Below are positions 6,991 through 56,178 of a stretch of DNA of 56,178 nt, piece after piece. This DNA comes from a virus: IMG/VR virus record IMGVR_UViG_3300031757_000001, positions 1 through 56,178 of that record, one strand, 5' to 3'. Both the position numbers and the translations under genes were made by a program. The notes under the pieces were generated by a model. The model was not told the DNA's origin. It did no database searches and saw only the letters and a program-made list of their open reading frames with translations. The stretch's first letter is position 1, and every line of letters starts with the position of its first letter.

Positions 6991-7115
6991 GGGGTTGTAG
7001 CTCAGTTGGTTAGAGCCTTGTCCTCCTTCATCGTGAAATTCTAGATAAATTAGCGAACGGCTTAATTATCCGTGGAGCAAACAAGAGGTCGGTGGTTCGA
7101 ATCCACCCAACCCCT
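6991..7115 (+). tRNA. tRNA-like gene with about 52-nt insertion in the anticodon loop
   Basis: A canonical tRNA frame is visible: acceptor stem GGGGTTG/CAACCCC, T8-A9, D stem GCTC/GAGC with AGTTGGTTA loop, anticodon stem CTTGT/ACAAG, variable region AGGTC, T stem GGTGG/CCACC with TTCGAAT loop. Between the anticodon stem strands are 59 nt instead of 7, including an internal CTCC/GGAG pairing and an ACGG...CCGT hairpin. It may be an intron, a tRNA decoy, or a tRNA-like RNA. The anticodon cannot be assigned because the splice junctions, if any, are unknown. The nucleotide between D and anticodon stems seems to be missing. No CCA is encoded. Confidence 0.65.
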
Positions 7116-28796: not shown

Positions 28797-29852
28797 ATGA
28801 CTGAGGGGAAAATGAACATACTTGTTTGTGGAGCGGGGGGTTTTATTGCTGGGTATTTAGTTAAAGACCTTTTGAGCAAGGGGCATCACGTAATCGCCGC
28901 AGATATTAAACCGCGAGGTGGCTGGTACCAGGTCCATCGGGGTGCTGTAAATAAATATAGTTGCGACCTGCGCTCTAAGGAAAATTGTGAGATTTTGACC
29001 GAAGGTATGGACAGGGTCTATAATCTTGCATGCAACATGGGGGGAATGGGATTTATTCAAAACAATCACGCCTTATGTATGGAGAGCGTTCTCATACAGA
29101 CCCATATATTGATCGCTTGCAGGAGGAATAACGTTAGGGACATCCTGTACAGTTCTTCCGCTTGCATATATCCAGAAGAAATACAAAAGGAAATTAAGGA
29201 CTCTGCGGCTCAGGGGCTAAAGGAATCCGACGCATATCCAGCGAACCCAGAAGACGGGTACGGCTGGGAAAAGTTATTCAGCGAAATAATAACTGATTAT
29301 TTTCGAAAAGATTTTGGGGTAAATCCAAGAGTATGCAGGTACCATAACGTTTATGGACCACATGGAACCTGGGACGGGGGAAGAGAAAAGGCTCCTGCGG
29401 CCATATGCAGGAAAGTTATAAATGCCAAACTGTCTGGAGAGAAGGAAATAGAGATATGGGGCGACGGAGAACAAACCAGATCCTTTATGTATGTAGATGA
29501 CTGTATAACGGGAATGGATTTATTGTGGAAGAGCGACTTTACTCAACCAATAAATTTAGGGAGCGACGAAATGGTAAGCATCAACCAATTGGTGGACATT
29601 GTGGAAGAAATCGCGGGCATAAAGTTAAAAAGAAAATATTTACTAGATAAGCCTCAGGGGGTTAGGGGGAGAAATAGCGATAATGCACTAATACGTAAAG
29701 TACTGGGTTGGGCCCCCTCGGTAAAGCTTAAGGATGGAATGGAGAAAACTTACAAATGGATATTCCAGCAAATAAAAAATGGACAGGACGGCGACAAGGG
29801 GATGGACGCACACGAGGAGGAGGGCTGGACAATAAACTCCCGCAAGAGGTAA
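28797..29852 (+). CDS. GDP-mannose 3,5-epimerase-like SDR
   Basis: The SDR protein of 351 residues has GAGGFIAGYLV at the N-terminus, the distinctive NMGGMGFIQNN, SSSACIYPE, YGWEK with catalytic Tyr/Lys, RYHNVYGPHGTWDGGREKAPAA and WGDGEQTRSF. This set is diagnostic for GDP-D-mannose 3',5'-epimerase-type enzymes, which make GDP-L-galactose or L-gulose. It probably feeds a phage-encoded glycan modification. Coupled closely to the glycosyltransferase at 29854. Confidence 0.85.
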   Translation: MTEGKMNILVCGAGGFIAGYLVKDLLSKGHHVIAADIKPRGGWYQVHRGAVNKYSCDLRSKENCEILTEGMDRVYNLACNMGGMGFIQNNHALCMESVLIQTHILIACRRNNVRDILYSSSACIYPEEIQKEIKDSAAQGLKESDAYPANPEDGYGWEKLFSEIITDYFRKDFGVNPRVCRYHNVYGPHGTWDGGREKAPAAICRKVINAKLSGEKEIEIWGDGEQTRSFMYVDDCITGMDLLWKSDFTQPINLGSDEMVSINQLVDIVEEIAGIKLKRKYLLDKPQGVRGRNSDNALIRKVLGWAPSVKLKDGMEKTYKWIFQQIKNGQDGDKGMDAHEEEGWTINSRKR

Positions 29853-29853
29853 T

Positions 29854-30639
29854 ATGAGCGACATCAAAGACGACATAACCATTGTGCTTTCCACGAGCCC
29901 TATGCCCAGTCACCCTTCTACGGTATTCTTGGACGAAGTGATAGACTCTATTTATAAGTTTTTGTTCAGGAATGAAAAAACCAAGATAATCATTACTTGC
30001 GATGGAGTTAGGGGCAGGAATGAAAATTATGAAATGTTTCTTAAAGATTTAGAGGAAAAATATAAATCTCATAAAGAGATCGAAATAATCAAGAAGCCAG
30101 AGTTCGGGCACCTGACTGGAAATCTTAGATTTGCAATAGAGCACGTAGAAACTGAATTTGTTTTCTTCGTCCAGCACGATATTTCTTTTTTGAGGTTTGT
30201 CGATATCGGTAAGGTTGTCGAGGACATGCGCAACAACCCGCAATTAAAGCATGTTAGGTTTAATAAAAGAAGAAATGTTAAAAAGCGGGGGGACCGCAAC
30301 TTGGGGAAGCGGAGAGTTGACGCGAACTATAAATACATCTCCACCCCCCAGTGGTCCGACCAGAATCATATCTGTACGGTTAATTACTTCAAGAATGAAG
30401 TTTTAACTAGAGTAAGCCGAGGATTCATGGAACACACAATGAACAGGCGGGCGAGAGGGAAGCACAATGTTTTTGGAACTTATATATTCGGCGACCATAA
30501 CGACCCTACTGCAACGTGCCACCTTCAAGGCAGGGTTGAGGCGGAGTTTGTCATACCTAGCTTCTGTTGCGTGGATTCGCCAAACTTAAAGGGCATTGAA
30601 AATTTCGACGATTATTACAAAGACAAAGTCAACTTTTAA
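29854..30639 (+). CDS. Glycosyltransferase-like protein (GT-A fold)
   Basis: The protein of 261 residues begins ITIVLSTSPMPSHPSTVFLDEVIDSI, a GT2-like N-terminus, has KIIITCDGVRG, and FVFFVQHDISFL, where QHD stands where the DxD metal-binding motif is in GT-A enzymes. The acceptor is unknown, possibly a virion or cell-surface sugar. It starts directly after the epimerase stop. Confidence 0.65.
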   Translation: MSDIKDDITIVLSTSPMPSHPSTVFLDEVIDSIYKFLFRNEKTKIIITCDGVRGRNENYEMFLKDLEEKYKSHKEIEIIKKPEFGHLTGNLRFAIEHVETEFVFFVQHDISFLRFVDIGKVVEDMRNNPQLKHVRFNKRRNVKKRGDRNLGKRRVDANYKYISTPQWSDQNHICTVNYFKNEVLTRVSRGFMEHTMNRRARGKHNVFGTYIFGDHNDPTATCHLQGRVEAEFVIPSFCCVDSPNLKGIENFDDYYKDKVNF

Positions 30640-38066: not shown

Positions 38067-38659
38067 AAATAAATAAAAAAGGTTTAAATGTGGAGCTCGG
38101 CAGGCAACTTGCTCCTATCCTAAAAAGAAAAGTCCAGACTAAATTGATTCGCGTCGCAAGGGAAGTTGAGGCGATGTTAATCAAGGAATTTGACTCTCAT
38201 CCCGTAACTAAGGAAATTAAAGGCGGGGAAGGCTCGGGCAATATAAGTGGTACGCTTGGGGGTTATGGCAACTTGTTTTCATATATAGGCTTTAGTGACT
38301 CAGATAATCCAATAGAAATTGTTAGATCCTTGTTGGTTAATTCCGTGAAGGTGCAGATGTTGCCCCCGAATAGCAAGGAGATGATTCAGAGCGCAATAAT
38401 ATCCTTACCCACAAAAGCCCAGATTGAGGCTGCAACTCCGCTACCCTGGGCGGGAGGCAGAAGCTGGGTAAAGGGCATAGAGGAAGGTATTTCTGGGCTA
38501 GGGCAGTATTTAAGAAAGGAGTCTGGGAGGCACGGAAGATCTGGTGGCGGCGTGCAGGCAGAGGAAAACGTACGAGGGGGTGGATTTAGGAGAGTGGATT
38601 ATTTATCTGGGATACTTCATAGCTTAACTCAAAACATAACCGCAGCGATAAAAAGGTGA
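38063..38659 (+). CDS. Probable neck/tail completion protein (198 aa), GTG start
   Basis: The basic N-terminal helix (RQLAPILKRKVQTKLIRVAREVE) followed by a Gly-rich region fits tail-completion or HK97 gp10-like proteins in the same place. The GTG overlaps the stop of the gene before. Function by position only. Confidence 0.5.
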   Translation: MKINKKGLNVELGRQLAPILKRKVQTKLIRVAREVEAMLIKEFDSHPVTKEIKGGEGSGNISGTLGGYGNLFSYIGFSDSDNPIEIVRSLLVNSVKVQMLPPNSKEMIQSAIISLPTKAQIEAATPLPWAGGRSWVKGIEEGISGLGQYLRKESGRHGRSGGGVQAEENVRGGGFRRVDYLSGILHSLTQNITAAIKR

Positions 38660-39972
38660 ACCAAGAACAAGAAAAGGAAATTTTACGTAGGGCGAGAGTA
38701 AGCGATAGTTTATTCGATCTTAATAACGTCCAAAGCTTTTACCCAGGAACTAAAATAAAAAATGGAGTGGACACTGGAGAGCCTTGCTTGGTTGTGGGGG
38801 TTACAAAAAAAGTAAGGAGCGAAGATTTAAGGAATGAGGATTTAATTCCTGAGTTGATTGGGGACAATCTACAGACAGACGTAGTTGAGGAAAGCGAGCT
38901 TTCCAGGTTCGGCAATTGCGGACTGAGCGAATCTTTAGGGCAGGGCGTACCGCCCTATGGGCCTTGTGATGGGCACGATTACAACTCATCGGGGGATCCT
39001 TTTGCAAATGCACTCGGGGGAATATCAATTGGCCCAAACGATCCCTTAAGGAGGTGGAGCGGAACTTTAGGATTCATAGCGAAAGACGTAACGGATTCAA
39101 AACTCGTAGGAGTTTCAAACAATCATGTTCTCGGAGATTATGTCGATACTGATTATTCTCCGCTTGGATGTTATTTGGAAAATGGGGAACTTCTTGATGA
39201 GTTTAAGTTAAATGAGGACATGAGCCCTTTGGTTCAAAATATGATACAGACCCCTAGCGTGCCCGACTCAAGCAGAAACTCCGTAATCCTGGGGGAGGTA
39301 AAAAGAGCAATTGCGACAAAATGGGGAAGCTCCGTTCTCCCAGCAAATACTGTTGATGCGGCAATAGTGGAACTCACTGAAGATATTCATCCGATGACTG
39401 ATTTGGCGCACCTGTCTGAAAGCGCGCTAAAAGTTGCCGTGGCAAAAATAGGAGAAAGAGTCAGTAAGAGTGGGAGGACAACTGGAGTAACTGGAGTTTC
39501 GAGTTCTACTAGGATAGTTAGCACGAACTACACTGTAGCCATCGGTTCTGGTTGTGAGGACGGGCTTAAAACTAAATTTACCGATTGTATTAAATTTAAC
39601 TGGAACGCCGAAAGAAGTAATAATTGGGAGTTTTTCTCTTACGCGGGAGACTCTGGATCTGCGATAATGATGGACGAGGCTACGGGGAGTAGCTTGGTTG
39701 GGCTTCTTTTCGCTGGAACATATTTTCAAAATTCCACTAGTATGCCTAATCCTCCATATGGCACTGGGGTCGCATGTAAGATACAAAACGTATTTAGCGC
39801 TCTAAACATAGAGGCGTGGAACGGCAATGTGATTTGTGGCGCAAATTCTAGATTTGTAAAAGTAAATGGAAGGTGCTACAGAAACTCGAATACTTCTAAG
39901 CCCCTGGAGCTGATCAGTCATCAAAATCATGAAAAATATGGGACCCTAGGTGAGTGCGTGGGGGATTTGTAA
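38656..39972 (+). CDS. Trypsin-like (S1-type) serine protease, GTG start
   Basis: The 438-residue protein has a complete trypsin-fold catalytic set: His157 in VSNNHVLGD, Asp234 in VDAAIVEL and Ser333 in YAGDSGSAIM, plus GRTTGVTGV, typical of bacterial S1 relatives. The first 130 residues are an extra N-terminal region, and a Cys-containing tail follows. No signal peptide, so it would act in the cytoplasm or virion. It sits in the virion operon, GTG overlapping the previous stop, just before the tail tube. A virion-maturation role is likely by context; its substrate is unknown. Confidence 0.82.
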   Translation: MNQEQEKEILRRARVSDSLFDLNNVQSFYPGTKIKNGVDTGEPCLVVGVTKKVRSEDLRNEDLIPELIGDNLQTDVVEESELSRFGNCGLSESLGQGVPPYGPCDGHDYNSSGDPFANALGGISIGPNDPLRRWSGTLGFIAKDVTDSKLVGVSNNHVLGDYVDTDYSPLGCYLENGELLDEFKLNEDMSPLVQNMIQTPSVPDSSRNSVILGEVKRAIATKWGSSVLPANTVDAAIVELTEDIHPMTDLAHLSESALKVAVAKIGERVSKSGRTTGVTGVSSSTRIVSTNYTVAIGSGCEDGLKTKFTDCIKFNWNAERSNNWEFFSYAGDSGSAIMMDEATGSSLVGLLFAGTYFQNSTSMPNPPYGTGVACKIQNVFSALNIEAWNGNVICGANSRFVKVNGRCYRNSNTSKPLELISHQNHEKYGTLGECVGDL

Positions 39973-43803: not shown

Positions 43804-46800
43804 ATGTCAACAGAAAACGTACAGGTTAGAGTAGGCGCTACTGGACTTGCTGAGAGCATCAGGAGGGAGGCTAATCGCGCCCAGGCGCAATTAGCAAGCA
43901 AGCCAATTAGGCTGAATTTGGACACCAAGGGCTTTAGGCAGCCATTGGGCAGGATAACTCACGATGTAAGTGAGTTCAATAAATCCATGGACGCTTCGGT
44001 TGCTCGCGTTTTGGCATTCGGGGCAGCGATGGGGGTTATAAATGCCATCACTAATTCATTAAAGGCTATGGTTAACGGCACCGTTAAGGTCGAAAAGGCC
44101 CTCAAGGATGTTAATGTCATTTTGAATTTGAACAACAATGCTCTCGCTAAATTCGGAGACCAGTTGTTTGACGTCGCGAGAAAGACTTCTCAGTCATTTG
44201 ATACTGTGTCTGAGGCTGCGGTAGAATTTGCAAGGCAAGGCCTTGGGGCTGCGGAAACCCTTAAGAGAATTAACGACGCAATGATTCTCTCTAGGCTTTC
44301 TGGGTTAAAGGCCGCGGAGTCTGTGTCGTCCCTAACTGCCGCAGTAAACAGTTATGCGAAGGCAGGAATTTCTACAACGCAGGTAATTAATCGCATGGCG
44401 AATGTCGACGCTGCATTTGCCGTTTCGTCTGCAGATCTGGCCAATGCTATACAGAGGGCGGGGGCTTCAGCTCAGGGAGCTAAAGTTGAATTCAATGAGC
44501 TTCTAGCCGCAGTGACTTCCGTACAACAACAAACAGCAAGAGGTGGAGCGGTTATAGGTAATGCGTTCAAAAGTATATTTACAAGAATGCAAAGATCTGG
44601 AGTAAGGGAAACTCTGGAAAACTTAGGGGTTGCAACAGAAAATACAAATGGGAGTCTTAGGTCAGGTATCACGGTACTAAGGGATTATGCAAAAATATAC
44701 AAAAATTTAACTGACCAACAAAAAGCCTATACCGATCAACAAATCGCTGGACTGTTCCAGATAAACAATTTAAAGGCTTTGCTCTCTGACCTTACCTCTG
44801 AGTATTCGGTTTACGATAAAGCCTTAAGGACTGCTGACTCGAGCACAAATCAAGCCATACAAAGAAATGAAGAGCTCAATAAAACCCTCAGCTCTCTTCT
44901 ATTGAGGACTGGGGCAAGTATAGACGAACTTGCAGCGAAGCTTGGTGAGCTTGGCGCAACGGAAGGTATTTCTAAATTAGTGAATATGGTAAAGGGCGTG
45001 GCGGACTTTCTCAATGACATACTGGGTACTGGAGAGGGAGAGGGTAATACTTTTGCTAAAAATTTAGTTAAGGGAATTGGGGGTTTCCTTACGGGCCCTG
45101 GGCTTGTTATTATTGGCGCGGCGCTAGCGAAGATATTTGGCCAAGTCGCGAAATTTGGGACTAGCGCATTTAAGGAAATTTTAGGCTTAAATGTCGAAGC
45201 AAAAAGACAGGAGTCCTTACAGAAAGCCATAGGGGCCACGCTTTCACAGAATGAAAAACTATACGCACAAATAATGGGACTAGCTGGGAACACCGCGCAA
45301 CAAGAGCAGGTCTTACTAAATTATATAAGACAAGAAACAAAGGAGCGCCTAGCTCAAGAGGCGATCATGAAGAGAATCGCTTCAAGTAGTGCGTTCATTG
45401 GTGTGGGCGCTGGGGAGGCGGGGTTTGTCCCCGCGGGAAAAGGGAGGGCAAGGAAAGTAGGCAAAAAGACATTAGGAATGGCCTCTGGCTTTGTTCCAAA
45501 TTTTAGAAGAAATCCCGCTCAATCTGCAGAGTATATGGGCATGGTCTCTGGCGGCTATTCTAAAAAAGCTTTAAGAAATCCCAAAATAAAGAAAACTAAA
45601 ATTCATGATGGCAAAGGGCAGTCTTTTTGGGCGCAAACAAATGGCGCAGAAAACATTAAGACCTTTTCCAATTTATCAGGAAAGAAGGCGACCATGGTGG
45701 TTCCCGAGAAACAAAGCGATGCGTACAAGGCATTTTCAAAGAAATTAAAGAAGAAAATGGCGGCAAGTGGTTTTGTTCCTAATTTTGCAAAGATGCCTAG
45801 GAACTTCCTGGGAACAAAAGCTAGCGATATCAGGAAAGACGGGGCGAACAGGATTTCAACAAAAGAGTTTGACGCAACGAACCTTGTTTCCATGCTTGTT
45901 CCCGACAAGGGGGGCTCGCATATGGTGAAAGGCGGTGTGACTATGCCAGAGGGGCATATACAAAGGGTGAGGTTTATGAAGGTTGGTCCAAATAAAGACC
46001 CAAAGGGAAGGATTAAAAGAGGGCTAGATAAAATCACTCGAATGCAATTAAACCAAGGCTCGAAGATTTTTGCAAATCTTCTGGACAGGAATATACCAAA
46101 GGGCCCAATGACTCGATTCGGTGCCTCAGAGGTGGGAACGACTGCTGGAAGGATATTTGAAAAGGCTGCAGGATCTGTTATGAAATCTCCGTCGTTCGGC
46201 CTTGATACCGCAACGTTTGATTTCATTGGTGGAGACAGGGGCAAGGGTGGAATTTTTGATTGGAAAACCCAGCTTGCAGACGCAAAAAGTTCGAACACTC
46301 CCAGTAATCGAACCTCAATGGCAAAGAAAACAATTGAGTTTGTAATGAAGGGGGCAAAGGGGTGGAGGCAGCAATACAAAGGAGATAAAGACCAGGCGGC
46401 TGTTGAAAAAATTAAAAGAGATGTCGAGAAAGAAGTGGCCAAGACGCGGGTCGGCGGGGAGGGAGCAAAAGGAAGGAAGGTAGGGGCAATCGGCGCAAGG
46501 AGGTTTGGTTGGCGTGCGTCAGGAGGTTACGTCCCTAGCTTCTTTGATATTTTCGGCGGAACATCCAATATGGGGGTGGATCATCTTGGCCCAGCTCATG
46601 GGGTGCAAAAATTTCAGGCGCCGCCATCCCGAATGGCGGCTTCAACGGGAAATAAAATGGGTAAAAATTTCTGGATGGCCATGGATGCTCTTGGGGTTAC
46701 CAACGTATCAAGAAGCTTTAATCTCACGTCTCATAGTCGGGCCGATCTAGACACTTTTAAAAACAAAACGCTTCCAAAAAATCTTCGTAGTGGTAATATA

Positions 46801-49800
46801 GGGGATATATTTGAAGCAAAGACTGCTTACGAAAGATACGGAGATAGGGATGAAAGGGGAAAGCTAAAGTCGTTAAAATTAGAAACCTTAAAAGCTCACC
46901 TCTCTCAGGCCAGTCTGCCATTTGACTCAAGAGGTCCAGGTGGGGTTGGAGAGGCAAAGGCGTTAGATATAATGAAGGGCAAGTCTGCTGCGGGAACACA
47001 GGCTGATGTCATAACTAAAAGTTTATTCTCTGACTCTGACCGAGGCTTATTTAAGGGCATTTCTGAAAAATTAACGGTTGGGAATGGAAAGTTTGGAAAG
47101 GACTGGGCAGTCGGTGCGGATGGGGCGAAAATAAATATCCCTGGCAAGCTGGCAACAGAAATGAAGGCGGCTGGATATCACGTCTCGGGCGATCAGGCAA
47201 GCAAGGCGGAGGTAAAAAGATTTGCAAAAGCCTCTTTGTTGGGGTATAGAAAAGCTTACAACCAAAGAAAGGTTCAAAATGCAGTTCAGAAGAACTCTCC
47301 AATGTTCCAGGATAAATTAAAGCTTCCTTCGGCCGTCCCTTTCCCTGCAGGAGGAAGGAGTAGCGGAAGGTTCCAGCTCGCCGCCAGAAGAGGATTAAGG
47401 GGAATGGGAGCAAGCGGCGGTTACGTTCCTAATTTTGCATTAAGGACGTCCCCCATGAAGCCTCCTTCGTATCTCGTAAAAATGGCGGAAAAAATTCACG
47501 CCGCTGGAGGGAAGGCTCAGATTATAGGAGGTGCGCCCAGGGACCACTTGCTAGGCATGGGCAAAGGGAAGCCGAAGGATTGGGATGTAGAGGTATTTGG
47601 GTTACAGGAAAAAGCCCTTCGCTCCATGTTGGGAAAAAACGTTAGCGAAGTTGGAAAAGACTTTGGGGTATTTAAAGTAAATAATAGAGGAGCCGATTAC
47701 GACTTCTCCATGCCTCGCGCCGAAACCAGCACGGGAAGGGGCCATAGGGATTTTAAAGTCAAAAAGGATCCGTTCATGTCGGAACTAGAAGCTGCCAAGC
47801 GAAGAGACCTTACTGTAAACGCTATAAGCTATAACCCTCTAACGAAGAAATTTAGCGACGCTGGTTTAGGCGGGATGAAGGACCTTGAGGCGAAGGTAAT
47901 GAGGCCGACATCCGCAAAGTTCATGGAAGATCCCTTGAGGGTGATGAGGGCCATGCAATTTGCTGGGCGTTTCGGGTTTTCGGCAGATGCAAAGCTTATA
48001 GAATACTCAAAGGCAATATCTGGTAAATTTAACGCCCTGCCCAAGGAGAGGGTACGGGACGAATGGTATAAGTGGGCCACTAAATCCAAGGATCCGTCAA
48101 AGGGGCTGGATTTCTTGGAGAAGTCTGGCTGGATGAAGCACTTCCCTGAATTGGGTAGGCTATCTGGCATTAAGCAATCCCCAAAATGGCATCCAGAGGG
48201 GAATGTTTTTGAGCATACAAAAATGGTTGTCGACCAAATGACAAAAAGGAAAGTCTGGAAAGGTTGGTCTCCCGACGAAAGGTGGAAGGCCATGCAAACC
48301 GCATTAACTCATGATTTTGGAAAATTTGGTACCACCATTAGAACCCCGAAGGGGCTGACCTCCGCTGGCCACGCCGAAAAATCAGTAGGGGACGCAGAGG
48401 CATTTTTCCAAAGAATAATGTCCAAGGGAGAAGCCAAAAGCTTAATAAAGGAAATCGGCCCTGATATTGGGGGTCATATGTACCATACAAATTTGCCCGT
48501 AGGGAATAAGGCCATTGGGAGAATGAAGCGAAAAGGCATGAATCTAGAGAGGTCCATCGCAATGGCAAAATCGGATGTCCTTGGGCGAGGGCCACAACCT
48601 AAGGGTGCTAGAGGAATCAAAGAGGTAAGACAATTTGAAGGCCAAGTCAATAAGATGGGAGTAACAAAGGCGGCAGTAAAGCGTTTGGTTACGGGAAATG
48701 ATTTAAAAAAGGCAGGGTTAATGGAGCAGGGCCCAGGGATGAAGCCAGTACTCAACGCGCTAGAAGACGCTCAGTTAAGCGGGCAATTCTCAACCACTGC
48801 AGGAGGATTAAAATACGCAAAGAGGCATCTCGGTTTGTCTGGCGGATACGTTCCAAATTTCGGATATATGGGCAAGGGCATAAGACAAGCGATCAATAGA
48901 GAGCAATCTATGTCTGGGCAAAAAGCCGTAGTCGAAAGATCCAGGTTCCTTGATGGAGGAGTGGGGGTATACAATAAAGCTCAACAAAGAAAATATGGCA
49001 GTCTTGACAGGACGATACAAAGAGATCACCTTGGCCAAGGCCAGAGAAGGTCCACCTTAGGCGAGACTGGCTCTGGAAAAGAAAGGTATGCCGCTGGAGG
49101 TTTTGTTCCTAATTTTAGGCTGAGAAATATTTTTTCAAGAAATGACCCAGCTTTTCAAAAAAGTAGAGCCACATGGAACGAAAAAACAGACTCTTATTTA
49201 GAATACATTAATCCAAGAAAGACTCAAAAGTGGGGCACTGGACCAGTAGATAAGAAAACCAGGGAAATTGCAATGGCTGTCTCTCGTCAAAAGGGAGATA
49301 TGTTTGAAATATTCAAGTCCGCAAAAAACTCCAAGTTCATGAAAGAAGGCGGGAGGTATACGACGCAACAGCTTGGCCAGCAAATGGGGAGAAAAATAAA
49401 CCCTAAATCAACTAATTTTGAAAATTTGGTAAGCAGTTTTCCTCAATTGAAATATAGGATGCAGCGTGGACTTCATACCTCTGGTACATATAGGAACGAG
49501 TCGACGGGAGGCCTTGGCCGTAGATTTAGTGGTTTAAGTGATCTACGGTCCTACGTTAACTCCTTAAGCAAGAAAGACTTTCAGGGCTCGCTTGGCAAGG
49601 GGGCGCAAATTCGAATAAATGATTTAGAGACAAAACTAATTAAGTCTACGGCTGATGGTGGAGTTTATAGTCAAATTGGGAAGAAGTCTGGCGGGTACAT
49701 TCCAAATTTTGCGGGAGCTCGGGGAGGTTCGATGCCAAGGTCCTTTGGGTTGCAGTCGGGCAAAGCGGATCGTGGGCTCGCGGCTGATGCCCATAATGCG

Positions 49801-52800
49801 GAAGTATTTAAAGCGCTAAGGAGGCGGGGTCGCGGCACAGGGATGGGAAAGCAGGAAATTGCGGAGCAGGCGGTTGGGGCATACTTAAAAGGCGGCGTTC
49901 CCGCAAGGGTGGCGGCCGATGCCGCGACGTCCCTGATTTCGGGCCAAGCCGCTGGACTTCCCATGCCAGCGTTCCTGTTGGATATGGCCTTTATGCACAC
50001 AAAGGGCCTTGCGATGATGGGCAAGAATATTTTGACGGGGAAAAAGCTAACTACGGGGCTGGCTGCACATTATGAGCGTCAATTGACCGCCAGGAGCCCG
50101 CTTGTTGGCGGAGCCTCCACCTTCGCAGGGGGGTATGTTCCTAATTTCGCCCGCGCAGACAGGTGGACTAGCAGCTGGACAAAGTCAAGGAAATCCGCCA
50201 AGAAAAAGCGCTATGGCAGTGGTTCGGCTAAACAAAACAGACAAACTGAAGCCAATGCGTTTGTGGGTCTGGGGGACAAGGTGCAAAAATTGCAAAAAAT
50301 AGGCCAGAATCTTCATTTAGACAAAATAGACGATATATTTCAAGGGTTTTTTGCTGGAGGATATGTTCCTAATTTTGCAGGCAAGTCCGTGGGTCAGCAA
50401 ATTAAGGACGCAAGAAAAGCGTTAAAAAATTTACACCCGAACGATGTGGCAGGAAGGGAGAACCTTAACGCGAAAATTCAAGAGCTTGAAGGACGAAAGA
50501 GAGGTCATAGCAATAGAAATAAGGGGACGAAGGGGAATCCGACAGGCGCTGGAAGCGGCGATAGAAACAAAGCGCCGACGGCTAGTGCTGTAGACAAACA
50601 GTCCGTCGATCCAGACGTCAAGGCAGACAGGAAAGGCAACAGGGAGATAAAAAGAAAAAGAAGGACAGCAAGAAAAAGAAAAATAAAGATGCTGAGAATG
50701 TGGCGTGGAGCCACTAAAACCGCAGGGGGAGCGCTTGAATGGGTAAAGGGGCTGGGCCCTTTCGGAACAAAGAAGGCTACAGACTTCATTGGGGATACTC
50801 GTAAGGACAGGGGAGCCTTAAGCGGGAAGTGGCTACAGAAAGGGAAGGATTTTATTGGAAGAATTAATGCGGCGTCTGCTGGAGGCAAGGAGGGGCTGCA
50901 GAAGCATGACGATCAGCGAGGGGAAGAAAGGCGCGCCAAGAAAGCAGCTCGAGAGGCAAAACGGGCGGCGGATAGAATTGAAAAAGCTGCCGCAAAGACG
51001 GCCAGAGTGCAGGCGGCGCGAGAGCTAAAACACCAGAAAAAGCTGGATAAGGGAACCAAGTCGGAAGAAAGGAAAAAAAGAAAGGGGAGGGTATCGAGGG
51101 TGCGCTCGTACAAGCGGAAGAAATTTGTAGAAAGAATGACCAAGCCGTACAAGGATTGGAAGAGAGAAAGTGCCGAAAACAAGAAAACTAAGGCAGATAG
51201 AAACGCCGCAAGAAAGGCGCAAATTGTAGAGCAAAAGAATCGGGATTTAGAGCAAAAGAGAGCGGATGACCGTGCCAGGTTAGACAAGAAGGAGAGGAAT
51301 AAAGCGGAAAGAGCTGCTGGAAAAACAAGGAGAAAACAAAGGAAAGAAAGAGTATCGAGGGTGCGCTCGTACAAGCGGAAGAAATTTATGAAAGCCTCCC
51401 TCCGTACGGGGCTTGGAGCAGGCGGAAGGATCCTCGCGGGGGCGGCCGCGGGGCTCGCGCTACCATTAGTGGGCGGGGTTGGGGTTGGCGAAAGGGCAGT
51501 GGGTGGCGCCGCGAAGGCCGTAGGCGGACTCTCGGGTGGAATAGGGAAGGCGGCAGGGAAGGCGTACGGATGGAGCGTTCAGAAGGCCAAGAAAATAGCC
51601 TATGAGGCTAAAATTGCAAAAATCGAGAAAGACATTTTAAAGGCGAAGAAAAAAGAGTTGAAGGCCGCTGCAAAAACAGTCGTGGTTACGGATCAGAAAG
51701 TTAAAACTGTAGTCCAGCAAAATAAGGCTGCGGATAAAGTTACTAAGGCTACGGTTAAAAAAGCAGCAAGGAAAACTCCTAGCGCAGAGAAGAAAGCTTT
51801 GAATAGGGAAAACATTACCGCTAAGGCGATAAATGAAGCCAATGCGAAAGCAAAGGGTTCAAAGGGCGGTCCCCCCAAGGGCCCAAAGGGGCCATCCACC
51901 CCCACGACACCTGGAATAGATCCCGAGAAGAAGATTCGTGGAGGAATGGATAAAATGGGATCGCTCTTCATGGTTCAGATGGCTGCATCTATGGCCCTTC
52001 CTTACGCGGAGCAATGGAACGAAAAGAAAAGAGATGGGTCTGAGGGGTTTGGCAAATCTACATCTCAAGCTTCAGTCAATGCCCTGGCGACCGCGCAATA
52101 CGCGATGTTTTTAGCGTTCATACCTGGAATTGGAATTGCCGCCGCAACCGCGGCGGTTGGCATAGCTGCTCTCGTGGGCTGGATAGACGGCTTGACCGAA
52201 AGTTCCGAAGAGGCTGGCAAGAGACTGCAAGAGGAAAATGCGGAAAAGGCCAAGCGGGCAGGTCGACAGTCTGAGGCAAGAACTGGATTAATGTCGGGAA
52301 TTTCCGAACTAAGAAATAGAGAGCGCGGGGGGAACGCTGAAAAAATAAGGACCGCAAGGGATAATGTATTAAGTAGGCTCGGAGGGATTGAGGATAACAA
52401 GGAGAGGCAAAAGCTTCAGAGCATGATAAATAGCGGCGCAAGCACTTCGGATATCGCAACGGAGCTCGAGAGGAGAGAAAATATTGCAAATAGAGAAGCG
52501 CAAAAGAGAAATGCATATACCCACATAGGGGAGTCCGCCTTTGCGGATAAGGATTTTGGAACGAAGATGGGCGATGGAGATAAAATTTGGATAGACAGCG
52601 CAGGCTCTTTCTCTAGCGCAATATCAAACTTAAACAAGGATGAGCTTAAGAAGTTTAGAGATGGACTAAAAGAAACTACGGGGAAAAATGCGCTGCTAAG
52701 TGATGCTTTTGAGCAAATGCGGGCTGACCAATTGGGGAACGCATCCAGCGATCAGAGGAATCTGTCGGAAAAGAATTACAAGAACCTGTCCTTGACCTCG

Positions 52801-55800
52801 GCAGATATTGATCGCACGGAGAAAGACTTAAGTAATTTAAATATGCTCACTCCTGCGGCGCAAAATGCAATAAAGGCGGCGCGGGAAGAGCGAAACGATG
52901 CCGCGCTAAAGGCCATAATGGTCTCGATGGAGCAAGGAAACGAAAGATCTCTGGACTTTAAAGCGGGGGGAGATGCGGCCACTGCGCAAGTTGGGGTCAA
53001 CAGGGCTTTCGAGGAATTTACTAACGAGCTTAAATTTAGCGAACAAATGTTTAAACAATATAACTCTATATTGAATAAACGGGCTAAACATGAGGTGGAA
53101 ATGATGAATTTAGTTGGTAACGCAGCGATAATGTTGAGTTCTAATTTTGCCAAATCGTCAATAGATATAGCCAGGAATGCTCAGGAGTTTAATATTGACT
53201 TCGATCAAAGGATGGGCTCCTTGGGGGCATTTGAGGCGAACTCCAAAAAGTTCGAAGCAAAACGCCAGGCAATGAATGCTAATTTTGCGGTAGACCAAGC
53301 TGCTGTTTCTGCGAATAGGGGGCTATCCATAGAGTCCCTGAAACAGGGGACAAATAATCAATTAAAAAGCATGGCTAGAGAATACAATCAAGGGTCGAGG
53401 AGGACTGTGTTTGATGCCATAAGCCGAGACCCAAAGAATCTCACTAAGGCAGATAAGAAAATTCAAGACGAATTTAAGCGCCAGGTACAGAGCGGAGATG
53501 TAAATATCGATAATATTCATAAAACCGTGGGTCGAGCGGTCTCTTCCGCCAAGGTAAGAGAGGTTGAAAAGGCGGTGCAGCCCAAGGATAGCCTGTCGCT
53601 CAAGGATGCGGAAGCCAGAGTGGAGAGGGCGGAATTCGAATTGAAGAAGGCGGGCAGGGGCGAAGCGATCAAGAGACTTCAGCAGTCCATCTTCAACCAG
53701 ACAGACGAGGGGATGGGCCTGATGGGCGGTGATCCGTTTTGGATGGTGCAGGATCCAGGCTTAGGGCGTCCAGAAAGGTACTTTAGCAGCTTCCAGGGAG
53801 AGAGAGGGCAACTACCATTATCAGACCAAGAGGCCCAGGCTCGTCTCGACGAGGAGCCAAGCGCCCAGGGGGCAATCGCGGAGAAAACTAGGAAGATCGT
53901 TGATGATCGAATAGCGGCGACCAAACGCGCAGAAGAGAAATATTTTCAGGACTATGGGGAACGCGTAGACCTCATGGGGCTTGATCCGACAGCGGCATAT
54001 AAAGGACCTGACATGGGCTGGAATACTTCTGATATTAAGTGGAAGAAGCGTTCGCCGTACACCGATGATTGGGTAGATCAGGCGGCAAGGGATGGTGGTA
54101 GACCCGAGCAAGTCATATTTGATCCCGTCAGTTGGCAATCTAGTATTGAGGTGCAGCGTAATACCGCGCGTGACCTTGCGAAGACTAAGTATGAGGAGCT
54201 TGAAGCAGCCAAAAAGAACCTCAAGGATCGGAAGCGAGAGAAAAAAGCCGAAGAAGCCAGAGGCCGCAAAGATGGCGTGGAGAATTTAGGCAAATATAAA
54301 GATGACTTGGCGGGTCGGAGAGAAGTTCTTGATACGGACAAAACTGGACTAGCTCCCCGCATGGCGACCCAACTAGAAAGAGGGCAGACATCTACCGCCG
54401 CAGCAATGAAGGAAGTCGGGGAAGATTTTGCGCGAGAACAGCAGAAGATAAACGTAAACGCCGCGAAACAATCCCTACAGCTGGAGCTGCAGAGAAGGAT
54501 AATGGAGCAGCAGCTTAGGCTTGAAGAGGAACAGGCGCAAAAGAACGAGGCATTTAATAGGCTCCAGTCAAGAACCTCTGGGGGAGTAACAAAGACCACC
54601 GTACTTAATAATATTGTTGCGGATGCAAATATAGCTTCCGTCTCCGATCAGGTGGAGTTGGGTGGCGGCGCGAGCCTCGGAAATCGGGCGATTGGAGCGG
54701 AAGCGAGGCAAAGCATTGCCGCCGTAACTGGGGTGTCGGAAATTTTCACGCCAGCGGATAAGCTTGCGTTATTTGATTTTAATACCAAAGCCATGGTTGA
54801 CGCCTTGAAGGCGGGAGGAGATACCAAGTCGGCGAAGTTGGTAGAGGAAGATGCAAAAAAAGTAAGAGAGCGGATCAAGGCGGGCGAGGCCAGTCCATAC
54901 GATTCGGATGCTGAAAAATTAAATTCAGTAATAAGAGAATTAAAGGCTGTAATAGAAGGAAAATTGATCGCAGCCCTGGAAAAACCCATGGAGCCGATGT
55001 TGTTCGAGTTTCCTGCCGAGATGGATGCTGCAATGAATAGGGTTTCGGAAGAGCTGAATAAGCTTAGTTCCGAGGGATTTAAATGGTACGAAAATCTTTA
55101 CAATATTGCAACTATATTAGACCAAATAGAAAAAAACTTGAGAGAGAAGGAGGCAATAGACGCTTTCAACGAGGGGAGTGATTTAACTGGATATAACACA
55201 ACTACCGATAGGCATGGCCGAAAGCGCACTAGCGCAAGAGTAGATGGAGGGGAAATCATTTGGGGAGAAAAGGGTGAAAAAGTTGCCACGACCAAGAACG
55301 ATGACTGGCTGAATACTGTCGAGGTCACAAGGGAGGCGGATGGAGGGGTTTACTATAAGAAGCGTACAGGAAGTCACAACGCTGCCACGAATCATACCAC
55401 TTGGGAGGAGGGAGAGGAAAAGTTTATCGCTAACCCAAATAAAAAGGATCTATCTCTTCCGTCCAGAGCGGATTTAACTACCGCCGAGGGTCCGAAGTGG
55501 GACTTTTGGAGAGATAGGGTTGGGGCCTTTGAGGACAGGCGGCAGGGTATTGCGGGGAGTAGAAAACCTGCACAAGCCCCGCCCGATATAGACGCCGCCA
55601 GGAAAGCCGCTCAGGCTCGCATTGATCAATTAGACGCCATAAGTGATCAAGGCAGAGGGAGTAGCCTGTTTGATATCGTGCCGCCTAAGGACTCCAGCGA
55701 GTATAAAGACCTGAAAGGCGGCGGTAATCTTTTAAACCCGATGAGGGCTGTGGGCGATCCCTATAATGGCGGGAGGGCAATGCCTGGGCTTCGTGCCTTT

Positions 55801-56178
55801 CATGATAATTTAAACGAACGGAATTCTATCCAGAATCGCATGGCAAGCAGCCAGGGCATAAGTACGGTCGAGCATTCCCTGCCAGGCAAGCTTGACTGGA
55901 GGGGCATGCCGTCAAGTGGGAAACTCGGCCCGTCGGGAAAGAATCGAAACTGGTCGATGCCTCGGGCCAGTTCTTCTGCTAATGCAAGGTGGGAGGCTAA
56001 GCAGATGGAGGATATGGGGCCACCTCCTGCTGATGTAAGGGTTGGTACAAGCGGGCCAATGGTCCCTTTTGGTGCTCCTACCGAGCTTGCCTCACGAAGG
56101 CGATGGAAAGATACAAAGCCCGAAGAGGATAAGAAGTGGCCTCTGGCCAAGTGGATGGGCCTTGATCAAGAAAGTATC
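43804..56178 (+). CDS. Giant multidomain tape measure protein (at least 4125 aa, open at 3' end)
   Basis: One frame is open for 4125 codons to the window end. Residues 1 to about 460 match the tape measure core (PhageMin_Tail-like): RVLAFGAAMGVINAI, VEFARQGLGAAETLKRINDAM, TAAVNSYAKAG and a hydrophobic stretch around 420-450. Residues 560-2191 carry nine (A/S)GG(Y/F)VPNF motifs with enzyme-like modules between them, including a CCA-adding enzyme. Residues about 2270-2550 are very basic, then a hydrophobic hairpin at about 2760-2800 and long coiled coils follow. It starts at ATG 43804 with weak AAGG upstream. It determines tail length and probably enters the cell with DNA. The C-terminus is not seen. 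Confidence 0.9.
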   Translation, partial: MSTENVQVRVGATGLAESIRREANRAQAQLASKPIRLNLDTKGFRQPLGRITHDVSEFNKSMDASVARVLAFGAAMGVINAITNSLKAMVNGTVKVEKALKDVNVILNLNNNALAKFGDQLFDVARKTSQSFDTVSEAAVEFARQGLGAAETLKRINDAMILSRLSGLKAAESVSSLTAAVNSYAKAGISTTQVINRMANVDAAFAVSSADLANAIQRAGASAQGAKVEFNELLAAVTSVQQQTARGGAVIGNAFKSIFTRMQRSGVRETLENLGVATENTNGSLRSGITVLRDYAKIYKNLTDQQKAYTDQQIAGLFQINNLKALLSDLTSEYSVYDKALRTADSSTNQAIQRNEELNKTLSSLLLRTGASIDELAAKLGELGATEGISKLVNMVKGVADFLNDILGTGEGEGNTFAKNLVKGIGGFLTGPGLVIIGAALAKIFGQVAKFGTSAFKEILGLNVEAKRQESLQKAIGATLSQNEKLYAQIMGLAGNTAQQEQVLLNYIRQETKERLAQEAIMKRIASSSAFIGVGAGEAGFVPAGKGRARKVGKKTLGMASGFVPNFRRNPAQSAEYMGMVSGGYSKKALRNPKIKKTKIHDGKGQSFWAQTNGAENIKTFSNLSGKKATMVVPEKQSDAYKAFSKKLKKKMAASGFVPNFAKMPRNFLGTKASDIRKDGANRISTKEFDATNLVSMLVPDKGGSHMVKGGVTMPEGHIQRVRFMKVGPNKDPKGRIKRGLDKITRMQLNQGSKIFANLLDRNIPKGPMTRFGASEVGTTAGRIFEKAAGSVMKSPSFGLDTATFDFIGGDRGKGGIFDWKTQLADAKSSNTPSNRTSMAKKTIEFVMKGAKGWRQQYKGDKDQAAVEKIKRDVEKEVAKTRVGGEGAKGRKVGAIGARRFGWRASGGYVPSFFDIFGGTSNMGVDHLGPAHGVQKFQAPPSRMAASTGNKMGKNFWMAMDALGVTNVSRSFNLTSHSRADLDTFKNKTLPKNLRSGNIGDIFEAKTAYERYGDRDERGKLKSLKLETLKAHLSQASLPFDSRGPGGVGEAKALDIMKGKSAAGTQADVITKSLFSDSDRGLFKGISEKLTVGNGKFGKDWAVGADGAKINIPGKLATEMKAAGYHVSGDQASKAEVKRFAKASLLGYRKAYNQRKVQNAVQKNSPMFQDKLKLPSAVPFPAGGRSSGRFQLAARRGLRGMGASGGYVPNFALRTSPMKPPSYLVKMAEKIHAAGGKAQIIGGAPRDHLLGMGKGKPKDWDVEVFGLQEKALRSMLGKNVSEVGKDFGVFKVNNRGADYDFSMPRAETSTGRGHRDFKVKKDPFMSELEAAKRRDLTVNAISYNPLTKKFSDAGLGGMKDLEAKVMRPTSAKFMEDPLRVMRAMQFAGRFGFSADAKLIEYSKAISGKFNALPKERVRDEWYKWATKSKDPSKGLDFLEKSGWMKHFPELGRLSGIKQSPKWHPEGNVFEHTKMVVDQMTKRKVWKGWSPDERWKAMQTALTHDFGKFGTTIRTPKGLTSAGHAEKSVGDAEAFFQRIMSKGEAKSLIKEIGPDIGGHMYHTNLPVGNKAIGRMKRKGMNLERSIAMAKSDVLGRGPQPKGARGIKEVRQFEGQVNKMGVTKAAVKRLVTGNDLKKAGLMEQGPGMKPVLNALEDAQLSGQFSTTAGGLKYAKRHLGLSGGYVPNFGYMGKGIRQAINREQSMSGQKAVVERSRFLDGGVGVYNKAQQRKYGSLDRTIQRDHLGQGQRRSTLGETGSGKERYAAGGFVPNFRLRNIFSRNDPAFQKSRATWNEKTDSYLEYINPRKTQKWGTGPVDKKTREIAMAVSRQKGDMFEIFKSAKNSKFMKEGGRYTTQQLGQQMGRKINPKSTNFENLVSSFPQLKYRMQRGLHTSGTYRNESTGGLGRRFSGLSDLRSYVNSLSKKDFQGSLGKGAQIRINDLETKLIKSTADGGVYSQIGKKSGGYIPNFAGARGGSMPRSFGLQSGKADRGLAADAHNAEVFKALRRRGRGTGMGKQEIAEQAVGAYLKGGVPARVAADAATSLISGQAAGLPMPAFLLDMAFMHTKGLAMMGKNILTGKKLTTGLAAHYERQLTARSPLVGGASTFAGGYVPNFARADRWTSSWTKSRKSAKKKRYGSGSAKQNRQTEANAFVGLGDKVQKLQKIGQNLHLDKIDDIFQGFFAGGYVPNFAGKSVGQQIKDARKALKNLHPNDVAGRENLNAKIQELEGRKRGHSNRNKGTKGNPTGAGSGDRNKAPTASAVDKQSVDPDVKADRKGNREIKRKRRTARKRKIKMLRMWRGATKTAGGALEWVKGLGPFGTKKATDFIGDTRKDRGALSGKWLQKGKDFIGRINAASAGGKEGLQKHDDQRGEERRAKKAAREAKRAADRIEKAAAKTARVQAARELKHQKKLDKGTKSEERKKRKGRVSRVRSYKRKKFVERMTKPYKDWKRESAENKKTKADRNAARKAQIVEQKNRDLEQKRADDRARLDKKERNKAERAAGKTRRKQRKERVSRVRSYKRKKFMKASLRTGLGAGGRILAGAAAGLALPLVGGVGVGERAVGGAAKAVGGLSGGIGKAAGKAYGWSVQKAKKIAYEAKIAKIEKDILKAKKKELKAAAKTVVVTDQKVKTVVQQNKAADKVTKATVKKAARKTPSAEKKALNRENITAKAINEANAKAKGSKGGPPKGPKGPSTPTTPGIDPEKKIRGGMDKMGSLFMVQMAASMALPYAEQWNEKKRDGSEGFGKSTSQASVNALATAQYAMFLAFIPGIGIAAATAAVGIAALVGWIDGLTESSEEAGKRLQEENAEKAKRAGRQSEARTGLMSGISELRNRERGGNAEKIRTARDNVLSRLGGIEDNKERQKLQSMINSGASTSDIATELERRENIANREAQKRNAYTHIGESAFADKDFGTKMGDGDKIWIDSAGSFSSAISNLNKDELKKFRDGLKETTGKNALLSDAFEQMRADQLGNASSDQRNLSEKNYKNLSLTSADIDRTEKDLSNLNMLTPAAQNAIKAAREERNDAALKAIMVSMEQGNERSLDFKAGGDAATAQVGVNRAFEEFTNELKFSEQMFKQYNSILNKRAKHEVEMMNLVGNAAIMLSSNFAKSSIDIARNAQEFNIDFDQRMGSLGAFEANSKKFEAKRQAMNANFAVDQAAVSANRGLSIESLKQGTNNQLKSMAREYNQGSRRTVFDAISRDPKNLTKADKKIQDEFKRQVQSGDVNIDNIHKTVGRAVSSAKVREVEKAVQPKDSLSLKDAEARVERAEFELKKAGRGEAIKRLQQSIFNQTDEGMGLMGGDPFWMVQDPGLGRPERYFSSFQGERGQLPLSDQEAQARLDEEPSAQGAIAEKTRKIVDDRIAATKRAEEKYFQDYGERVDLMGLDPTAAYKGPDMGWNTSDIKWKKRSPYTDDWVDQAARDGGRPEQVIFDPVSWQSSIEVQRNTARDLAKTKYEELEAAKKNLKDRKREKKAEEARGRKDGVENLGKYKDDLAGRREVLDTDKTGLAPRMATQLERGQTSTAAAMKEVGEDFAREQQKINVNAAKQSLQLELQRRIMEQQLRLEEEQAQKNEAFNRLQSRTSGGVTKTTVLNNIVADANIASVSDQVELGGGASLGNRAIGAEARQSIAAVTGVSEIFTPADKLALFDFNTKAMVDALKAGGDTKSAKLVEEDAKKVRERIKAGEASPYDSDAEKLNSVIRELKAVIEGKLIAALEKPMEPMLFEFPAEMDAAMNRVSEELNKLSSEGFKWYENLYNIATILDQIEKNLREKEAIDAFNEGSDLTGYNTTTDRHGRKRTSARVDGGEIIWGEKGEKVATTKNDDWLNTVEVTREADGGVYYKKRTGSHNAATNHTTWEEGEEKFIANPNKKDLSLPSRADLTTAEGPKWDFWRDRVGAFEDRRQGIAGSRKPAQAPPDIDAARKAAQARIDQLDAISDQGRGSSLFDIVPPKDSSEYKDLKGGGNLLNPMRAVGDPYNGGRAMPGLRAFHDNLNERNSIQNRMASSQGISTVEHSLPGKLDWRGMPSSGKLGPSGKNRNWSMPRASSSANARWEAKQMEDMGPPPADVRVGTSGPMVPFGAPTELASRRRWKDTKPEEDKKWPLAKWMGLDQESI
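45481..45504 (+). repeat. VPNF motif 1 (residues 560-567)
   Basis: ASGFVPNF in the tape measure protein, first of nine. A degenerate EAGFVPAG lies about 20 residues upstream. Confidence 0.85.
45763..45786 (+). repeat. VPNF motif 2 (residues 654-661)
   Basis: ASGFVPNF, followed by AK, closes a basic module of about 85 residues. Confidence 0.85.
45787..46515 (+). other. Inter-motif module A: possible PD-(D/E)XK nuclease-like domain
   Basis: Residues about 662-904 of the tape measure protein. GRIFEKA (Glu786), FDFIGG (Asp806) and FDWKTQ (Asp819, Lys821) occur in the order and spacing of a PD-(D/E)XK active site. Fold similarity has not been tested, so this is a pattern match only. Confidence 0.4.
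46519..46542 (+). repeat. VPNF motif 3, variant (residues 906-913)
   Basis: SGGYVPSF, with Ser in place of Asn. Confidence 0.8.
46543..47412 (+). other. Inter-motif module B: possible second nuclease-like domain
   Basis: Residues about 914-1203. GDIFEAK (Glu1004), LPFDSRG (Asp1041) and VGEAKAL (Glu1050, Lys1052) could form another PD-(D/E)XK-like set. Nothing else is recognised in the module. Confidence 0.3.
47413..47436 (+). repeat. VPNF motif 4 (residues 1204-1211)
   Basis: SGGYVPNF followed by Ala, immediately before the nucleotidyltransferase module. Confidence 0.88.
47461..48750 (+). other. Embedded CCA-adding tRNA nucleotidyltransferase with HD domain
   Basis: Residues about 1220-1650 of the tape measure protein. 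The class II nucleotidyltransferase head is complete: GGAPRDHLLG (1242-1251), catalytic KDWDVEVFG (Asp1259, Asp1261), FGVFKV, DFSMPR, RRDLTVNAI (1333-1341) and EDPLRVMRAMQFAGRFGF (from 1375), the nucleotide-recognition EDxxR region. An HD phosphohydrolase-like domain follows: His1463, EHTKM (His1471) and THDFGKFG (His1503-Asp1504). Free enzymes of this type add or repair tRNA 3'-CCA. All key residues are present, so the module is likely active. It lies between VPNF motifs 4 and 5. Confidence 0.88.
48838..48861 (+). repeat. VPNF motif 5 (residues 1679-1686)
   Basis: SGGYVPNF, followed by Gly, directly after the nucleotidyltransferase/HD module. Confidence 0.88.
49093..49116 (+). repeat. VPNF motif 6 (residues 1764-1771)
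   Basis: AGGFVPNF. The segment between motifs 5 and 6 is a short basic module of about 77 residues. Confidence 0.86.
49117..49686 (+). other. Inter-motif module C, unidentified
   Basis: Residues about 1772-1961. It contains KGDMFEIFKSAK, echoing the GRIFEKA and GDIFEAK of modules A and B, and YTTQQLGQQMGRKINPKSTN, which could be a helix-turn-helix. No catalytic set was found. Confidence 0.3.
49687..49710 (+). repeat. VPNF motif 7 (residues 1962-1969)
   Basis: SGGYIPNF followed by Ala. Confidence 0.86.
50125..50148 (+). repeat. VPNF motif 8 (residues 2108-2115)
   Basis: AGGYVPNF followed by Ala. Between motifs 7 and 8 is an Ala/Gly-rich helical module with no known domain. Confidence 0.86.
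50353..50376 (+). repeat. VPNF motif 9 (residues 2184-2191)
   Basis: AGGYVPNF followed by Ala. It is the last copy; none occurs in the remaining 1934 codons of the window. Confidence 0.86.
51091..51126 (+). repeat. 36-bp direct repeat, copy 1, in the tape measure gene
   Basis: A perfect 36-bp repeat of 51352-51387, in frame, encoding VSRVRSYKRKKF within the basic coiled-coil section. Confidence 0.9.
51352..51387 (+). repeat. 36-bp direct repeat, copy 2, in the tape measure gene
   Basis: The second perfect copy, 261 bp after the first. Identity at DNA level suggests recent duplication or gene conversion. Confidence 0.9.

Follow-up and report, generated by a model that had tools for sequence, protein, structure and literature searches.

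Why would a phage build a tRNA-finishing enzyme into the protein that measures its tail? This question is raised by a virus record of 56,178 bases, analysed here in its entirety and referred to as the window, in which one reading frame combines a tape measure protein (TMP) with what looks like a complete CCA-type tRNA nucleotidyltransferase. The answer that we favor, with a probability of about one half, is that the TMP doubles as a cargo carrier that delivers enzymes into the cell with the DNA, in this case an enzyme that restores tRNA 3′ ends.

The frame begins with an ATG and is still open at the end of the contig. At the composition of this ORF, the probability of meeting no stop over 4125 codons is approximately 10^-117, and the stretch contains no N. 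Its N-terminus matches both PF10145 (E 8.9e-23) and phrog_4211 (E 5.6e-41), and a terminase and a capsid-cement-like protein are encoded upstream, in a gene order common to two relatives. With a core domain of this kind in a very long ORF 3′ of head and tail genes, the predicted product is a tape measure protein. Among the structural genes upstream of it lies a protease-like gene (38656-39972, +; phrog_20754, 2.2e-25), a candidate for processing the TMP; this gene is specific to the window, having no match in the two relatives described below (G051 and G052), and Pfam-type and phrog profile searches of the window TMP itself returned no peptidase domain. A nucleotide-sugar epimerase gene and a weakly glycosyltransferase-like gene (28797-30639, +) lie between the terminase and the remaining head and tail genes.

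The enzyme within this frame was examined by motif, profile and predicted fold (positions in Table 1). The motifs GGxxRD, DxD, RRDxT(I/V)N and EDxLR are all present and in class II order; across 24 aligned homologues the catalytic residues are invariant or nearly so, and the HD-domain residues H1463, H1471, H1503-D1504, H1523, H1558 and D1591 are invariant. Residues 1237-1517 of the TMP match phrog_2244, “tRNA nucleotidyltransferase” (7.5e-56), and residues 1240-1367 match PF01743 (1.3e-13). The best NCBIfam model is “multifunctional CCA addition/repair protein” (1.2e-41), with the PcnB poly(A) polymerase model at 5.9e-23. The score against PRK10885 (142.8 bits) lies below the equivalog cut-off of 451, which reflects distance from the models and has no bearing on the fold, because a stand-alone relative from a viral contig, L149, also fails to reach it (178.8 bits). 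Among known structures, the module matches the CCA-adding enzyme 6ibp by sequence (4.8e-15), as well as 3aqm. An AlphaFold model (pLDDT 88.6, pTM 0.83) was compared with the PDB by Foldseek, yielding 45 chains at E<=5.9e-9, all of them CCA-adding enzymes, tRNA nucleotidyltransferases or bacterial poly(A) polymerase; the next match is FAM46 at E 3.3e-3, and nothing else lies at E<0.001. Furthermore, the module aligns colinearly over its full length with stand-alone enzymes of viral contigs such as L149 (~460 aa), and therefore appears to contain every part of the enzyme, from head, neck and body to the HD domain and the C-terminal part. Sequence comparison and structural modeling thus strongly support a complete class II CCA-type tRNA nucleotidyltransferase with an HD domain, in frame in a TMP and apparently active. 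Fold and motifs alone do not tell an enzyme that adds CCA from one that adds A; CCA addition with repair is favored by the profile scores and by the presence of an HD domain.

A preliminary description of this DNA, made from its letters without database searches, had placed a CCA/HD enzyme in the TMP frame, and the profiles, the conservation of catalytic residues and independent contigs bear this out. GG-x2-RD, D1259/D1261, RRDLTVNAI, EDPLR and the HD pair all lie where it had put them, and the structure prediction that it had proposed as a check gave the class II nucleotidyltransferase fold. Its extent for the module, 47461-48750, falls within the enzyme, but the end was set slightly short of the homology, which runs from 47455 to 48828.

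The same description had proposed looking for the domain in the TMPs of other phages, and there it was found. Two further viral contigs, G051 and G052, which come from other metagenomes and are syntenic with the window, carry the CCA module in their TMPs. G052 (the contig also designated L086 and L150) was reached through the TMP-core profile and G051 (the contig of L148) through a profile scan with the CCA module; a single-sequence scan of viral contigs for the module gave no match. The module was found in these three contigs only, of which G051 and G052 are near relatives. Their TMPs are single ORFs of 10,566 aa (G051, 14090-45787) and 10,441 aa (G052, 37366-68688), and in G052 the module occupies residues 1555-2028. 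The window module is 49-50% identical to the other two, and the TMP core of the window is 57% identical to that of G052, a divergence similar to that of the module. Between G051 and G052, dN/dS is 0.038 for the CCA module and 0.049 for the TMP core, as compared with 0.124 across all of the TMP that entered the comparison and 0.17 in the C-terminal stretch compared; these substitution ratios show the module to be under purifying selection. In a phylogenetic tree the three TMP-borne modules form one clade (support 100/99), whose nearest relative is an enzyme from another viral contig, L158 (95/95). The single clade, together with the similar divergence of core and module, suggests one old capture of the module followed by residence in TMPs.

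A motif, (A/S)GG(Y/F)(V/I)P(N/S)F, often followed by A and referred to here as PNF, occurs nine times in the window TMP and nowhere else in the window, and the CCA module sits between copies 4 and 5. The 496 distinct instances give the consensus (A/S)(G/S)G(F/Y)(I/V)PNFA, in which the search pattern preset the I/V-P-N-F core but left free the G two positions ahead of it (440/496) and the A following it (301/496). A scan of 2.9 million viral contigs for the motif alone returned 64 stretches, all in long TMP-type ORFs and mostly with several copies. In the TMPs of G051 and G052 nearly all copies lie in the first half.

Table 1. The tape measure protein of the window and its parts (positions in the window; aa, residues of the TMP)
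Feature	Position	Strand	Remark
Tape measure protein ORF	43804..56178	+	at least 4125 aa; profile matches
TMP core, aa 1-561	43804..45486	+	~37-58% identity to TMPs of at least 576 viral contig stretches
PNF motif 1 (ASGFVPNF)	45487..45504	+	
Module w1	45505..45768	+	relatives in 134 of ~148 family TMP sequences
PNF motif 2 (ASGFVPNFA)	45769..45786	+	
Module w2	45787..46521	+	relatives in 80 TMPs
PNF motif 3 (SGGYVPSF)	46522..46542	+	
Module w3	46543..47415	+	relative not found in TMP family
PNF motif 4 (ASGGYVPNFA), left border of CCA module	47416..47436	+	
Class II CCA-type tRNA nucleotidyltransferase with HD domain, aa 1218-1675	47455..48828	+	homology to complete stand-alone enzymes
GGAPRD motif, aa 1242-1247	47527..47544	+	alignment of 24 homologues
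Catalytic DxD, D1259/D1261	47578..47586	+	alignment of 24 homologues
RRDLTVNAI motif, aa 1333-1341	47800..47826	+	alignment of 24 homologues
EDPLR motif, aa 1375-1379	47926..47940	+	alignment of 24 homologues
HD pair H1503-D1504	48310..48315	+	alignment of 24 homologues
PNF motif 5 (SGGYVPNFG), right border of CCA module	48841..48861	+	
Module w5	48862..49095	+	relatives in 123 TMPs
PNF motif 6 (AGGFVPNF)	49096..49116	+	
Module w6	49117..49689	+	in 9 TMP entries, window included
PNF motif 7 (SGGYIPNFA)	49690..49710	+	
PNF motif 8 (AGGYVPNFA)	50128..50148	+	
PNF motif 9 (AGGYVPNFA)	50356..50376	+	last copy; none beyond
Motif-free charged remainder of TMP, presumed ruler part	50377..56178	+	truncated by contig end

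The segments between the motifs differ greatly in their distribution over the TMP family. Modules w3 and w7 occur only in the window and the CCA module in three contigs, as set against the much wider occurrence of others (Table 1), and the order of modules also varies: w6 follows the CCA module in the window and precedes it in G051 and G052. Another family member, L076, resembles G052 minus approximately 1,370 aa that include the CCA module, and the homology between these two resumes exactly at a motif (residue 1212 of L076 corresponding to residue 2521 of G052). Over the family, 20.8% of 4,824 homology ends lie no more than 5 aa from a PNF motif, as compared with 8.3% for random positions; because alignments can be lengthened by the conserved motif itself, the effect is at most as large as this figure indicates. 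At the level of sequence, these comparisons show that the CCA fusion is one module in a motif-punctuated, shuffled region that extends across a large TMP family. The preliminary description had treated the fusion as singular; it is instead one of many exchangeable modules bordered by PNF motifs.

The window TMP combines the CCA enzyme with several conserved modules without assigned activity, and GNAT acetyltransferase-like and staphylococcal nuclease (SNase)-like domains are found in the TMP stretches of other family members. Module w2 has an invariant G..E...D and a nearly invariant K in 55 sequences, a nuclease-like pattern by eye; we did not adopt an assignment to the PD-(D/E)XK nucleases, for which there is this pattern and a fold search without a match. 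The modules before and after the CCA module in G052 and G051 (L150:8377-8925 and L150:13138-13842) resemble, again by eye, a HAD phosphatase (DFDETL...LTAR...DDA) and an ADP-ribosyltransferase (YRGQ...FSTS), respectively, the latter recurring in 9 TMP entries; both readings were set aside, as neither profiles nor PDB matches support them.

Several known systems share features with this arrangement. TMPs with peptidoglycan hydrolase domains exist and act on the cell wall during entry; they too have an enzyme embedded in the TMP, but a tRNA enzyme can act only in the cytoplasm. The module resembles class II CCA enzymes (PRK10885 and the stand-alone phage enzymes of phrog_2244) in sequence, motif order, predicted fold, HD domain and full length, and departs from them in lying within a structural tail protein as one of its modules and in scoring below the NCBIfam equivalog cut-offs. 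Another parallel in design is offered by the polyvalent proteins of phages and conjugative elements, in which many unlike enzymatic domains are strung along one long polypeptide that is thought to be injected together with the DNA (PMC5512222). Processing by metallopeptidase domains has been proposed for these, whereas here the carrier is a TMP and a fixed motif separates the modules; the text of Iyer et al. 2017 (PMC5512222) mentions neither tape measure nor CCA. Likewise, the effectors Sle1 and Tme combine a TMP-like coiled coil with an exchangeable functional domain, the latter being ejected from a tube (PMC13277306), although these belong to bacterial injection systems, with one C-terminal domain in Sle1, as opposed to a phage TMP in which a cytosolic RNA enzyme is found and the internal modules are many. 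Finally, phages carry sets of tRNA-repair genes, including RNA ligases and the CCA enzymes of jumbo phages, which restore host tRNA damaged by defences (PMC7824862); those are separate genes expressed after infection has started, while the enzyme considered here would come with the virion.

How might such a carrier work? The TMP would be laid out as a conserved core, then variable modules separated by PNF motifs, then a motif-free ruler part, and would lie in the tail lumen as a threaded or mostly unfolded chain. The lumen of the tail is where TMPs reside, and a folded enzyme of 460 residues is not expected to fit a normal one, so that unfolding and refolding must be assumed. At infection the TMP would exit the tail with or before the DNA, and the CCA module, still attached or cut free at or near a PNF motif, would refold in the cell. 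In the E. coli CCA enzyme, the HD domain has been proposed to remove 3′-phosphates before the CCA is rebuilt, and by analogy the HD domain of the module may do the same. Specifically, it would trim or dephosphorylate damaged tRNA 3′ ends, the enzyme would then add the CCA again, and translation would thereby survive host defences that damage or block the acceptor end until phage genes are expressed. The presence of an active tRNA enzyme in a TMP makes sense if this part of the TMP reaches the cytoplasm. That the module is carried in the virion, enters the cytoplasm, is released there, is catalytically active and serves against defences is what we infer. To our knowledge, these TMP phages have no known link to any tRNA-targeting defence.

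Several of the steps have precedents. During DNA entry, TMPs reach the inner membrane and meet proteins located there (PMC13190303), and contractile systems eject effectors that are related to TMPs (PMC13277306). Among the various attacks of hosts on tRNA ends is pyrophosphorylation of the CCA end, to which PaSpo, a hydrolase encoded by phage SSU5, is an antidote (PMC11559606). More broadly, the TMPs of this uncultured group, possibly phages of Flavobacteriia, may be delivery polyproteins in which PNF motifs delimit exchangeable cargo slots and from which a set of cytosolic enzymes, tRNA 3′-end repair included, would be injected before expression; we advance this tentatively, at slightly worse than even odds.

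It is necessary to ask how else the module could have come to lie in a TMP. Given that the window is a metagenome contig available without its reads, a bacterial or phage CCA gene could have been joined to a TMP gene in assembly. However, in two contigs of other metagenomes the module is likewise in frame and has motifs of the same kind on either side, its codon make-up fits the remaining TMP, and it forms a clade with the other TMP modules (100/99). Since G051 and G052 share it inside their TMPs, we count a chimera out, the chance left to it being negligible. Nor does it seem probable that the module is a functionless spacer that provides mere length or packing mass: TMP length can set tail length, and the TMPs of this family range from ~1,700 to >10,000 aa, but the catalytic residues are as intact in three TMPs as in stand-alone enzymes, dN/dS for the module (0.038) is below that of the TMP core, and a globular enzyme makes a poor ruler. 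We regard this explanation as very unlikely.

Two further alternatives accept a working enzyme. The TMP might be a late-acting polyprotein from which the module is cut out, or within which it is internally started, in the cell that builds the virions, where it would work late and not be injected. Processing could take place at the PNF motifs that border the modules, a protease-like gene is located upstream of the TMP, and an in-frame ATG at 47455, just before the first conserved enzyme residues, has a counterpart at the matching place in G052, as if an old start codon had been kept. Against this, the protease-like gene was not found in G051 or G052, enzymes for late use are normally separate genes and most of the phage CCA enzymes found stand alone, and a location in a tail-lumen protein brings no evident benefit unless the enzyme is delivered; hence we judge late action unlikely, though deserving of attention. 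Alternatively, the enzyme might be injected and act on a different substrate, extending another RNA or capping tRNA ends in the manner of MenT and so shutting down host translation. Class II includes poly(A) polymerases, the PcnB models and PDB 3aqm also match, and nucleotidyltransferase toxins that act on tRNA 3′ ends are known (PMC11541572); nonetheless, the CCA models outscore PcnB by far and the entire C-terminal part of the CCA enzyme is kept together with the HD domain, which makes this reading quite improbable.

Returning to the favored reading, in which the TMP delivers an enzyme that restores tRNA 3′ ends, the tRNAs served could in principle be those of the phage. Rfam identifies a tRNA at 6991-7115 (+, 49.6 bits) whose anticodon loop contains a 58-nt insert and which, as the preliminary description had said, has no encoded CCA. 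ARAGORN reports no tRNA gene in any of the three phages with a CCA-bearing TMP, missing this one as well, and Rfam finds no such intron-like tRNA in the scanned parts of G051 and G052. Because the gene is present in the window and absent from the scanned parts of its relatives, the proposal is weaker in the form in which the enzyme matures tRNAs of the phage itself. The tRNA is possibly a small intron carrier or a tRNA-like decoy.

The family to which this TMP belongs is large and uncultured. The TMP-core profile retrieves at least 576 relatives in viral contigs, and no isolate of the family was found among 50,697 phage records, in which there are only distant TMP-core matches; 50 motif-bearing records contained no match to PF01743. 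Of seven matches in genome assemblies, five come from Flavobacteriales metagenome bins, a weak hint that the host group is possibly Flavobacteriia. If the proposal is true, the ruler of the tail is also a cargo train, a route for proteins into the cytoplasm at the first moment of infection, and the PNF motif allows one to read what hundreds of uncultured phages may inject, its slots providing an unbiased list of candidate counter-defence enzymes. A tRNA 3′-end enzyme carried in the virion would suggest that tRNA damage, of which tRNA-cutting or CCA-blocking defences are examples (PMC11559606), must be countered before phage expression. The proposal also touches on the question of how a folded enzyme gets through the tube of a tail.

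CCA-type enzymes as such are common in phages (409 phage records match; see also PMC7824862). The preliminary description knew of no account of a TMP-CCA fusion, and a search of titles and the starts of abstracts, in a literature collection lying largely outside subscription journals and preprints, likewise found none; nor did that literature yield a publication on a “VPNFA” motif in phages. An apparent precedent, the “tail length tape measure protein” of Klebsiella phage vB_Kpn_K45PH128C2, was discarded, the CCA match being on the strand opposite to the annotated gene, as was the best match to the module in the phage set, a stand-alone enzyme on a bacterial-looking scaffold. Seven CCA enzymes in long viral ORFs (L152, L181, L228, L231, L220, L167 and L168) lack the PNF motif and were not accepted as TMP fusions. 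Such long motif-free ORFs (L152, L181, L231 and others), taken with L158, indicate that CCA enzymes join larger phage proteins repeatedly. In the L181 ORF (3336 aa), “SEGH” recurs between domains, perhaps a different punctuation of the same design, and in L231 and L220 the CCA enzyme is accompanied by a 2H phosphoesterase-like stretch (H.T...H.T), a possible RNA-repair pairing. In L158 (L158:7965-10007), it is fused to a C-terminal NADAR-like domain.
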